Assembly: GCA_016185505.1 (NCBI GenBank)
Contig: JACPNL010000030.1
Coordinates: 1-45,797, forward strand
Reading direction: 5' to 3'
Origin: Candidatus Yanofskyibacteriota bacterium
Lineage (GTDB): Bacteria; Patescibacteriota; Minisyncoccia; 2-02-FULL-40-12; GWA2-44-9
Length of the DNA: 45,797 nt
The notes under the pieces were generated by a model that saw only the letters and a list, made by a program, of their open reading frames with translations, was not told the origin of the DNA and made no database searches. Position numbers and translations under genes: made by a program. Shown here piece by piece: positions 22,823 through 35,803 of this stretch; within the stretch, counting starts at the first letter, position 1, and every line of letters begins with the position of its first letter.

Positions 22823-22866
22823 CCTGTGGAGGGCGGCCCTCCACAGGTTTAGAAATGTGGTATAAT
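22823..22866 (+). repeat. REP palindrome with TATAAT tail, copy 1
   Basis: 12-base arms CCTGTGGAGGGC / GCCCTCCACAGG (22823-22847), then a spacer and ATGTGGTATAAT (22855-22866). Same module as 24032-24077 and 33921-33993. Confidence 0.75.
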
Positions 22867-22869
22867 ATG

Positions 22870-22897
22870 TTAAAAATCCCCTTTCGGGGATTTTTAA
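22870..22897 (-). terminator. rnpB terminator
   Basis: TTAAAAATCCCC / GGGGATTTTTAA with a 4-base loop, directly after the rnpB 3' end; symmetrical, so it can act both ways. Confidence 0.85.
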
Positions 22898-22898
22898 C

Positions 22899-23345
22899 TC
22901 TGTGTTCAATAAGCCGAGTTCTGTCTGAGACAATAATTTATCTGGGCCATACATTACTATATGGCTCTAGCGAGCTAACTTTTCGAACCATGCACTTTCT
23001 AAGTTTCCAAAGAAAGTGCATGGAACGCTGCTCTTGCACCCAAGTAAGGATTTAGCTCCGACGCTCTTACGAGGTCGGAGTCCCGACTGAAACGTCGGGA
23101 CCGTTTCACCCCGATACTTCTAACCCACCGTATCGGACTAGACTCAAAATGATTAAATCAAATTTTTGGGTTGTCTTCCTCAAGGTTGCCCTATCGGACG
23201 TCTCTGCTCGCACCTCTCACATTACTGTGGACGGGCGTTACCCGCTACCCTGCTCCCAGCCCTCTTTTAAAAAAAGTAGAGCCGGGGAATGCTCGGACTT
23301 TCCTCCCCTGCCAACTGACAGGAGTAATTGCCTAGAACACAGAAC
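22899..23345 (-). ncRNA. rnpB: RNase P RNA (type A)
   Basis: Catalytic RNA that trims tRNA 5' leaders. On the minus strand I see the conserved GAGGAAAGTCCGAGC (P4 5' strand), ACAGTAATGTGAGAGG, CGAGCAGAGACGTCCGATAG, GGGTGAAACGG, CTTGGGTGCAAG and CAGACAGAACTCGGCTTATT (3' region, P4 3' strand). TCTGTGTTC at the 5' end pairs with GAACACAGA at the 3' end (P1) and sets both ends. A promoter upstream predicts the same 5' end; a terminator follows. Confidence 0.95.
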
Positions 23346-23351
23346 ATGTTA

Positions 23352-23380
23352 AGCATATCACAAAAACTAGTGCTAAGCAA
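23352..23380 (-). promoter_or_regulatory. rnpB promoter
   Basis: Minus strand TTGCTT (23375-23380), 17-base spacer, TATGCT (23352-23357), which puts the start near 23345 and agrees with P1 of the RNA. Confidence 0.7.
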
Positions 23381-23385
23381 TCGCT

Positions 23386-23406
23386 TGTGGAGGGCCGCCC
23401 TCCACA
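23386..23406. repeat. REP palindrome, copy 2, at the RAYT 3' end
   Basis: 10-base arms TGTGGAGGGC / GCCCTCCACA around C; 8 bp past the transposase stop. No TATAAT tail. Confidence 0.8.
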
Positions 23407-23414
23407 GGTTTAAT

Positions 23415-24020
23415 TTAGTCATCAAATGTTAAGTGACTTATTTGTAGCTCGTCCTTGTTAGTATAATCATGAAAAAATTCTTTATAAGTTTTTGTAGTTC
23501 CGCCAGTCATTTTAATAATCAAATCTTTATCAACTAATGGATCTCTCCCTCTCCCAACATAGTCAGTTAGACTGGAGTACGGCCACCTGAAAGGTTGTTT
23601 TGGATTTTTGTGTATGTAAACCGAAAGGTGTGTCAAATAAGAATCGTCATCTACTAGTTTGGCCTTAAATCTGCCTTGAAATACGGCTCCGATGTTTTCA
23701 TACTTTTTATTAAAGTAAATACTGTATGAGGTGCATAATTTACTAATAAACTTTGAGGTAGGGAGGTTTGTTTGTTGAAGAATCAGAAAGTGAAAGTGAT
23801 TCGGCATAAGACAGTAACTTAATACCGAAAAGGACCCTTCAGGTAAAGTGCTCATCCACTTGCTCATTCCTGTCTTTTGCAACCCTAAAATTTGTTTAGC
23901 GCGTTTAATAAAAAACAAATAATCTTCCTCGTCTTTAAAAACTAGGTCTTTATTGTGCCCACGGTTATAAATATGGAAGAAACCTCCCGTATGAAAATTT
24001 TTATAATCTCGGTAGCGCAT
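23415..24020 (-). CDS. REP-associated tyrosine transposase (RAYT, Y1/IS200-like)
   Basis: 201 residues of the Y1_Tnp fold. HUH metal site H75-F-H77 in LMPNHFHFLI, GAVFQGRFKAKLV, and the catalytic Tyr135 in YLTHLSVYIHKNP, all typical of RAYTs. Domesticated single-strand transposases of this class bind and move short palindromes. The gene lies exactly between REP palindromes at 23386-23406 and 24032-24077, with further copies at 22823-22866 and 33921-33993, so it is probably their mobiliser. A TATAAT in the upstream REP module (24032-24037) should start transcription about 5 nt before the ATG, giving a nearly leaderless message. No frameshift or lost catalytic residue is seen. Confidence 0.92.
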   Translation of the reverse strand: MRYRDYKNFHTGGFFHIYNRGHNKDLVFKDEEDYLFFIKRAKQILGLQKTGMSKWMSTLPEGSFSVLSYCLMPNHFHFLILQQTNLPTSKFISKLCTSYSIYFNKKYENIGAVFQGRFKAKLVDDDSYLTHLSVYIHKNPKQPFRWPYSSLTDYVGRGRDPLVDKDLIIKMTGGTTKTYKEFFHDYTNKDELQISHLTFDD

Positions 24021-24031
24021 AACGGTACAAT

Positions 24032-24077
24032 ATTATACCACAAATCAATTTGTGTGAAGGGCCGCCCTCCATAATAC
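24032..24077 (-). repeat. REP module with TATAAT tail, copy 3, upstream of RAYT
   Basis: Read on the minus strand: GGAGGGCGGCCCTTC, CACAAATTGATTTGTG hairpin, then GTATAAT (TATAAT at 24032-24037). Arms are imperfect compared with copies 1 and 2. It probably supplies the RAYT promoter. Confidence 0.75.
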
Positions 24078-24090
24078 AGTATTTTAGCGG

Positions 24091-33920: not shown

Positions 33921-33993
33921 TAAGTGTGGAGTAAGTGTAGAGGGCGGCCCTCCACACAAACGGCCCTCCACACAAAGGCATTTGTGGTATAAT
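33921..33993 (+). repeat. Doubled REP module with TATAAT tail, copy 4, upstream of rel
   Basis: GTGTAGAGGGC/GCCCTCCACAC palindrome (33936-33957), a second half palindrome CGGCCCTCCACAC (33961-33973), then ATTTGTGGTATAAT (33980-33993). TATAAT ends one base before the ATG of rel. Confidence 0.75.
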
Positions 33994-33994
33994 A

Positions 33995-35803
33995 ATGGAC
34001 AATTTATTAACGAAAATACTGGAAAGTCCGGGTAGGAAGAAAGATCCCGGCTTGATAGAGAAGGCCTACAAATTCGCCGAATATGCCCACGGCGGACAAA
34101 AACGGCTTTCTGGCGAGGACTATATAACCCACCCTCTGTGTGTGGCCTATTTTCTGGCCGACCTGGGGCTGGACTCGCCGACCATAGCGGCCGGATTGCT
34201 GCATGACGTTATCGAAGATTCCGGCATTACTCTCGAAGAACTCAAAAAGGAATTCGGCGCGGATATCGCTTTTTTGGTTGAAGGCATGACCAAACTAAGG
34301 AAAATATCCGACGCGGCTAACAAAGAAGATGGCGCTCATCGAAGCCACTTTAATTCGCTCAAAAAAATGTTTTTCGCCACTGCCGAGGACATAAGAGTCA
34401 TCCTTATAAAACTGGCCGACAAGTACCATAATATGGAGACCCTCAAATTTATGTCCAAAGCAGACCAAAAAAGAATAGCGCTGGAGACATTGGAAATATA
34501 CGCCCCCATTGCGGCTCGACTGGGAATGGGCCGATTGAAAGGCCAGCTGGAAGACATGGCTTTCCCGTATGTTTATCCGAGAGAATATTCCTGGCTTTTA
34601 AAAAAAGTTAAAGAAAAATACTCCGACCGCCTCAACTACATAGAAAGGACAAAACCGATGATCAGGCGGTATCTGAAAGACGCTGGTGTTGCGATAATTG
34701 ACCTTAATTCAAGAGCAAAACACTATTATAGTTTGTATCAAAAATTGAAGAGGAAAGACCTAGACCCAGAAAAAATACACGATCTTGTCGCAATGCGGAT
34801 CATCGTTCCCGACATAAGTTCCTGCTACGAGGCGCTGGGGGTCATTCATAAACACTACAAGCCCCTCCCCGGCTTAATAAAGGACTACATAGCCCTTCCC
34901 AAGCCCAATGGCTACCAGTCGCTTCACACAACCATATTCTGCGAAAAGGGCAGGCTTGTTGAAATACAAATACGAACAGAGAGTATGCACGACTATGCCG
35001 AAAACGGTATCGCGGCTCATTGGGCTTATAGCGAAAGCGGGAAAACAAAACCGATCGCGGCTAATGCCAAAGAGGTTGAATGGGTAGCCCAATTAAAGAA
35101 GTTCCTTGGAGAATCAAAAACAGGTGAAAGTTTAGCTAGCTTGAAAATTGATTTCTTCAAGAACAGAATATTCGCATTCACACCAAAAGGCGATGTGAAG
35201 GATTTGCCTGAAGGCGCCACTCCGATCGATTTCGCTTACGCCATTCATACAGATCTTGGCCATACTACCAAGGGAGCAAAAGTTAACGGTAAAATCGTTT
35301 CTCTGAATTACGAACTAAAGAACGGCGATGTAGTTGAGATAATGAAAGGCAAAGAAAAGAAACCGTCTTTTGATTGGTTGAAAGTAGTAAAGACGGCTAT
35401 GGCAAAAAAGGCGATCAATTCATGGCTACGAGAGGCGGGAGATAAAACATCGGATGTCGCGCTGAAGACATCGGATGTCCAACGGCCAACGGAGACCCGG
35501 CTACGCACGGGTCCCTCTCCAGGTTCCGATGTCGTTAATTCACGTCGTAGAATTAACGCTAAACACCAACCAAAAACTCCTTCCGTCGTTATCCAAAACA
35601 AGCAAACCGGCGAACCGCTTATAGCCGGCCAGCGCGGCCTACTATACAAAGTAGCAAAATGCTGCAACCCCATACCGGGACAAAAAATAGCAGGATATAT
35701 GACGTTGAACCAGGGCGTTTCGGTTCATACTGCTACTTGCACCAACCTTAAAAAATCAAAAGGCGACGGAAAAAGGATCGTAGCGGCAAACTGGTCAAAG
35801 TAG
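33995..35803 (+). CDS. rel: Rel/SpoT-type (p)ppGpp synthetase-hydrolase
   Basis: 602 residues. HD hydrolase domain (YITHPLCVAYFL, LLHDVIEDS, KLADKYHNMETL), synthetase domain (KHYYSLYQKLKRKD, IHDLVAMRIIV, YKPLPGLIKDYIALPKPNGYQSLHT, EIQIRT), TGS domain (RIFAFTPKGDVKDLPEGATPIDFAYAIHTDLG), then a zinc-type CC motif AKCCNPIPGQ. The C-terminal ACT domain is absent; normal Rel is ~720 residues. A ~110-bp repeat element (35447-35557) is translated in frame between TGS and the CC motif. The ATG is only one base after the TATAAT of a REP copy, so either another promoter serves it or a downstream start is used. Confidence 0.9.
   Translation: MDNLLTKILESPGRKKDPGLIEKAYKFAEYAHGGQKRLSGEDYITHPLCVAYFLADLGLDSPTIAAGLLHDVIEDSGITLEELKKEFGADIAFLVEGMTKLRKISDAANKEDGAHRSHFNSLKKMFFATAEDIRVILIKLADKYHNMETLKFMSKADQKRIALETLEIYAPIAARLGMGRLKGQLEDMAFPYVYPREYSWLLKKVKEKYSDRLNYIERTKPMIRRYLKDAGVAIIDLNSRAKHYYSLYQKLKRKDLDPEKIHDLVAMRIIVPDISSCYEALGVIHKHYKPLPGLIKDYIALPKPNGYQSLHTTIFCEKGRLVEIQIRTESMHDYAENGIAAHWAYSESGKTKPIAANAKEVEWVAQLKKFLGESKTGESLASLKIDFFKNRIFAFTPKGDVKDLPEGATPIDFAYAIHTDLGHTTKGAKVNGKIVSLNYELKNGDVVEIMKGKEKKPSFDWLKVVKTAMAKKAINSWLREAGDKTSDVALKTSDVQRPTETRLRTGPSPGSDVVNSRRRINAKHQPKTPSVVIQNKQTGEPLIAGQRGLLYKVAKCCNPIPGQKIAGYMTLNQGVSVHTATCTNLKKSKGDGKRIVAANWSK
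35447..35557. repeat. GACATC element, long copy, in rel
   Basis: ACATCGGATGTC twice (35448-35459, 35468-35479), an inner GGAGACCCGG / CGGGTCCCTCTCC pairing, then GATGTCGTTAATTC (35528-35541) with an inverted GAATTAAC. It encodes about 37 residues (TSDVALKTSDV... SDVVNSRRRIN) between domains. Confidence 0.75.

Follow-up and report, generated by a model that had tools for sequence, protein, structure and literature searches.

A patescibacterial RAYT-like transposase and its dispersed palindromic repeats, with a 3' tag that resembles an extended -10 promoter

The transposase locus and its repeats

The window, meaning the whole stretch of 45,797 nucleotides that was analysed, belongs to a 681-kb genome (G000) and contains a gene for a RAYT-like Y1/HUH transposase of 201 amino acids (23415..24020, minus strand), the rnpB gene for a class A RNase P RNA (22895..23343, minus strand; Rfam RF00010, 103.9 bits) and rel, which encodes a RelA/SpoT protein of 602 amino acids (33995..35803, plus strand; Pfam HD_4, RelA_SpoT and TGS). 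Four copies of a short palindrome accompany these genes. The sequence GGAGGGCSGCCCTCC is matched exactly at 22828 and 23389, and the matches at 24056 and 33939 each contain one mismatch; shuffled sequence gave a mean of 0.48 matches at up to three mismatches and never four.

Copies D and C flank the transposase gene. Copy D, its left REP unit (24032..24071, minus strand), is composed of a palindrome with one mismatch (24055-24071), a 12-nt spacer and the tag TGTGGTATAAT (24032-24042), with 11 nt between its terminal hexamer and the RAYT ATG. Copy C (23388..23404), located 10 nt past the RAYT stop codon, is a palindrome without a tag. The rnpB gene lies between copy C and copy A (22823..22866, plus strand), in which the palindrome CCTGTGGAGGGCGGCCCTCCACAGG (22823-22847; core, 22827-22843) is followed by a tag at 22856-22866 that is directed into the rnpB terminator. 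Copy E precedes rel (33938..33993, plus strand); an extra half-repeat separates its palindrome (33938-33954, one mismatch) from its tag (33983-33993). An earlier note on this DNA had placed the enzyme exactly between palindromes, which describes copies D and C correctly, although rnpB is also enclosed by the outer palindromes. Its observation that three of the four window copies end in TGTGGTATAAT was confirmed, with exact occurrences at 22856 (plus), 24032 (minus) and 33983 (plus).

The genome-wide count of repeats and tails that the note had suggested yielded five palindromes, three exact and two with one mismatch, four of which are in the window. The fifth, copy B, lies antisense within an ORF on contig C11, and the palindromes are therefore not limited to the transposase locus. 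TGTGGTATAAT follows copies A, B, D and E; the whole 681 kb has just six occurrences, and four of these adjoin a palindrome (overlap probability, ~4e-14). A, B and D all have exactly 12 nt between palindrome core and tag, and E has 28 nt. Copy number is low, the REPs away from the RAYT gene being A, E and B, and among 28 family genomes scanned the combination of palindrome and tail was found in this genome only. In the window palindrome, GTGG on the 5' side and CCAC on the 3' side are both paired within the stem, and both are absent from the hairpins of G031, a second genome described below.

The order rnh, rnpB, sugar transferase is conserved across the family (L220-L242), while the orientation of rnpB flips among relatives, and the RAYT gene was found in the rnh-rnpB gap of this genome only, among the genomes compared. 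Yet another gene occupies the gap in G027. In the same-genus genomes G012 (L236) and G011 (L240), a 177-aa Cas2/PaaX_M-like gene (Pfam PF20803, 6.6e-24) stands in the place of RAYT, at a site whose counterpart in the window is 23344-24090. This gene is flanked by its own palindrome of ~38 bp, TTGTCTYATAA..CCGATCGG..TTATGAGACAA, and in G012 there is a third copy after rnpB; the palindromes are thus found before the gene, in the gap between gene and rnpB and after rnpB, which is the layout of copies D, C and A. A search of ~250 kb of G012 and G011 detected no others.

The RAYT-like enzyme

The window protein is a Y1 transposase (Pfam Y1_Tnp, 2.5e-10) with an HxH motif, H75-F76-H77, and one tyrosine, Y135, for which a catalytic role is predicted; H75, H77 and Y135 show no variation across a 29-row alignment of relatives. 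The name RAYT-like was chosen because the protein does not reach the NCBIfam model REP_Tyr_transpos (35.8 bits, below the cut-off of 80) and because the motif given for RAYTs near the tyrosine, NP(L/V)(R/K)xG (PMC2817692), is only partial: it reads YIHKNPKQPFRW here, with NP there and the remainder absent. Matches that carry names come nearly all from Patescibacteria, and a PDB search with the protein returned no sequence relative. In most RAYT relatives the gene is flanked by a palindrome pair of its own. The proposal that a Patescibacteria-type genome contains a RAYT-like enzyme with cognate REPs is accordingly upheld by the Y1_Tnp match and by the flanking and dispersed palindromes. No second copy of the gene was found in the 681-kb genome, where the only other match is 38% identical and has a different palindrome.

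A second RAYT-like gene is found at L016 (G000 C3:20026), L114, L115 and L124, together with a long palindrome, CCTGTGGATAAnCGACTTGCGAAGTCGnTTATCCACAGG, that is conserved in at least three genera and has a -10 box immediately after it.

Hairpin, spacer and tag as one unit

The survey of the tag mainly covered two genomes, G000 and the Zambryskibacteria genome G031, which was reached through the locus L033, plus the flanks of RAYT genes. All five exact occurrences of TGTGGTATAAT in G031 come after palindromes, of which there are four different sequences. A scan of this genome for near-tags detected 19 sites with an upstream palindrome (mirrored control, 2/70), and 17 of these were counted as units after removal of an opposite-strand duplicate and of a site whose palindrome, 20 nt distant, is AT-rich. 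The 17 repeats contain several different palindromes and have the common tail GTGTGGTNTAAT. Furthermore, near-identical units of ~42 nt, extending over hairpin, spacer and tail, are dispersed in G031, at several solo sites. The left unit of the second RAYT gene in G031 reads ...GAAGGGTTCCCCTTCTTCATTAAAAAAGTGTGATATAAT and the right unit has one base different in the tag, the similarity of the two units stopping exactly at TATAAT, and a RAYT gene from Vogelbacteria has the tag at both ends. Hairpin centre and hexamer are ~22-26 nt apart over four genomes (22.5-25.5 in 22/23 units, the exception being copy E). Because hairpin, spacer and tag are shared at a set distance, it was concluded that they move together, in a unit whose structure, geometry and dispersal as a whole can be read directly from the sequences.

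A different possibility is that the tail is not carried, and that the enzyme places hairpins at a constant distance from TGTGGTATAAT-like sites already present. IS200/IS605 enzymes are described as using a flanking target tetranucleotide (PMC6006769), and, in the relative G002, the site of copy B shows a similar ATTATACTAC (as AATATTATACTAC) and no palindrome, an observation that counts against a carried end tag and leaves room for target choice at this copy. However, whole units, including the spacer, recur at several places in G031, too few 11-mers are expected by chance to supply so many targets at gene ends, and the tail is missing in relatives both at rel (G012) and after rnpB (G011). Selection of pre-existing sites, in its pure form, is thus disfavoured by the dispersal of units and appears unlikely, copy B being what keeps it a rival.

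Other observations also count against a tag that marks the end of the repeat. Most of the patescibacterial RAYT genes sampled are without such a tag beside the gene, copy C has none, and at the nearest RAYT, L025, TATAAT is found before the palindrome and not after it. The tag is also scattered on the RAYT tree, with 9 changes compared with a shuffled mean of 9.8, and a single origin of the tag is unsupported by this distribution.

The variable -11 base and the orientation of units

Of the 17 G031 tags, six have A at the variable position of GTGTGGTNTAAT, nine have G and two have C, and every other position is conserved in at least 14 of the 17. The variable position corresponds to -11 of the -10 box, the base that is least free to vary in a working promoter. 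All four tags of G000 have A here, which counts against the reading as an end tag, and so do both left ends of the G031 RAYT genes (p = 0.11; two cases only). Ten non-left G031 units had enough flanking sequence for their orientation to be assessed. In seven of them the ORF that follows is on the opposite strand, with its stop codon at most 1 nt from the tag in four cases, 19 nt in one and 110-149 nt in two. The remaining three comprise a unit within an antisense ORF, a unit that points towards a gene start and a unit without any called ORF downstream. Including the intragenic unit, 8/10 face an antisense gene, a skew of modest numbers that depends on mechanical ORF calls. The variable -11 base in a fixed tag and the antisense genes ahead of the units together suggest that the tail is an end tag first and a promoter second; these sequence patterns are best explained by an end tag of the repeat, rather than by a promoter that is retained on behalf of neighbouring genes.

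The earlier note had described a promoter module and suggested that REP movement may spread promoters; in the corresponding explanation, REP movement puts working promoters before genes and the units are kept for that reason. In agreement with this idea, all four tagged units of G000 have a perfect extended -10 tail, copy D is at a good distance before RAYT, and L250, a unit of G031, has a gene start 127 nt ahead of it. On the other hand, G or C occupies -11 in 11/17 G031 tags, most units are faced by antisense genes, copy A faces a terminator and copy B an ORF in antisense. The rel gene, where the note had also envisaged a -10 box beside the start codon, provides a further objection. The TATAAT of copy E ends 1 nt before the rel ATG, a start codon that is conserved when the upstream regions of relatives are compared, and a transcript from copy E, starting 6-7 nt downstream, would therefore be without this ATG, the next in-frame ATG, GTG or TTG being a TTG at codon 20. 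A promoter for rel at copy E was rejected on these grounds. What persists of the proposal is a plausible RAYT promoter in copy D and a -10-like tail that belongs to a dispersed unit; its maintenance to drive neighbours does not fit the -11 data, and is not supported by the rel copy, by A and B or by the solo units, most of which face an antisense 3' end. As a whole, this explanation is quite improbable. It is scarcely credible that palindromes and ordinary -10 boxes are neighbours by accident within small intergenic gaps. As a promoter sequence TGTGGTATAAT is not unusual, being present in 24/28 family genomes, but a chance association was rejected given the overlap probability in G000, the palindrome before each exact TGTGGTATAAT in G031, a spacing fixed over four genomes and the conservation of non-promoter variants of the tag.

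Promoter use at RAYT genes and a proposed mechanism

TANNNT is positioned exactly 6 nt before the ATG in 46/104 RAYT relatives and in 37/344 control ORFs, i.e. other ORFs from the RAYT loci (p = 7e-13), and, judged by its spacing, TANNNT-N6-ATG at these genes is a signature of leaderless transcripts. At L029, L033, L082 and L109 the arrangement is TGTGGTATAAT-N6-ATG. The 11 nt from hexamer to ATG in the window RAYT predict a leader of ~4 nt. Tags with A at the variable base match a perfect extended -10, and RAYT genes seem to make use of it. Since the hairpin occupies the position of the -35 element, RAYT bound to its REP would be predicted to occlude the promoter of its own gene, and autorepression may follow.

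The reading that is considered probable is that of a patescibacterial RAYT-REP system with a tag that is kept by the enzyme and doubles as an extended -10 when N is A. The mobile unit of ~42 nt would comprise a hairpin and, beyond a free spacer, the fixed 3' tag TGTGGTNTAAT, which ends in the hexamer. RAYT would recognise hairpin and tag on single-stranded DNA and would cut and join near the end of the tag, and this presumed recognition is the reason for attributing conservation of the tag to the enzyme and not to neighbouring genes. With A as the variable base, the tag would also be a complete extended -10 promoter; if the left repeat of RAYT is used in this way, a leaderless or very short-leader RAYT mRNA would be made, and RAYT bound to the hairpin over the -35 and spacer region may repress its own gene. 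As judged from relatives, the tag is kept mainly as the end signal of the repeat and probably drives the RAYT gene itself. A more specific proposal is offered only tentatively, namely that these repeats form a third tagged REP class, distinguished by GTGTGGTNTAAT on the 3' side. The end signal would then be a core promoter as well, RAYT would be transcribed leaderless from its own site and would repress itself, and A units would act as portable promoters, G and C units being silent.

Relation to known repeat systems

Published REPs are tagged with GTAG or CGTC (PMC3733652), with a canonical GT[AG]G at the 5' foot and atypical repeats in some subclasses (PMC6006769), and REP cleavage occurs at CT or CA, directed by a GTAG guide (PMC8266576). 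The RAYT-REP literature, as represented by the portions of PMC2817692, PMC3733652 and PMC6006769 available here, deals with GTAG-tagged repeats, mainly from proteobacteria. The present system is similar to these RAYT/TnpA-REP systems in having a Y1/HUH enzyme with one presumed catalytic tyrosine, a gene flanked by cognate palindromes and short solo repeats elsewhere, often intergenic or near 3' ends and in some cases in ORFs. It differs in that TGTGGTNTAAT is on the 3' side of the hairpin, whereas the published GT[AG]G is at the 5' foot, in its low copy number (5 in G000 and at least 17 in G031) and in the leaderless promoter predicted in the left repeat of RAYT. A 3'-side tag at a fixed distance from the hairpin centre was not found in the portions of PMC3733652, PMC6006769 and PMC8266576 available.

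CGTC-tagged REPs and Rickettsia palindromic elements are likewise short tagged palindromes, some in coding genes, but the former are without a dedicated transposase (PMC3733652), whereas no CGTC is present in the repeats described here, which terminate in TGTGGTATAAT and lie on either side of a transposase gene. The IS200/IS605 family has the enzyme superfamily in common with this system, as well as subterminal hairpins and a cleavage motif at a set distance (PMC6006769); here, however, solo repeats and not whole gene elements are dispersed, and there is one copy of the gene. Neither RAYT genes nor tagged REPs from Patescibacteria were the subject of any paper in the literature searched. The systems described here are found in this group with a different and longer tag, in a layout that would tie together recognition site, promoter and leaderless start. 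The free base of the tag tells retention as an end signal apart from retention as a promoter on sequence grounds, and makes the proposed spreading of promoters by repeats directly testable.

Several further sequences related to the palindromes or the tag were observed. A tagged unit at L254 (G031 C2:8677) is in frame in a leucyl-tRNA-synthetase-like ORF, where it codes for LDHTSNVSKTVFDTF. Palindromes of the form GTGGAGG(A/G)(G/C)CGCCCTCCAC, or its reverse, occur within ORFs of G000 at C6:2233, C26:10229, C26:37567 and C1:27539 (L009-L012) and at C11:24374 (L004); they are always read in one frame (VEGAPP, VEERPP, VEGGPP) and may be compared with intragenic REPs of the Rickettsia type. Finally, two facing tag-like sites, ATTATACCACGAGTTGTGGTATAAT, are found downstream of a tRNA-like sequence at G000 C11:7921-7945 (L017) and constitute a palindrome built of the tag itself.
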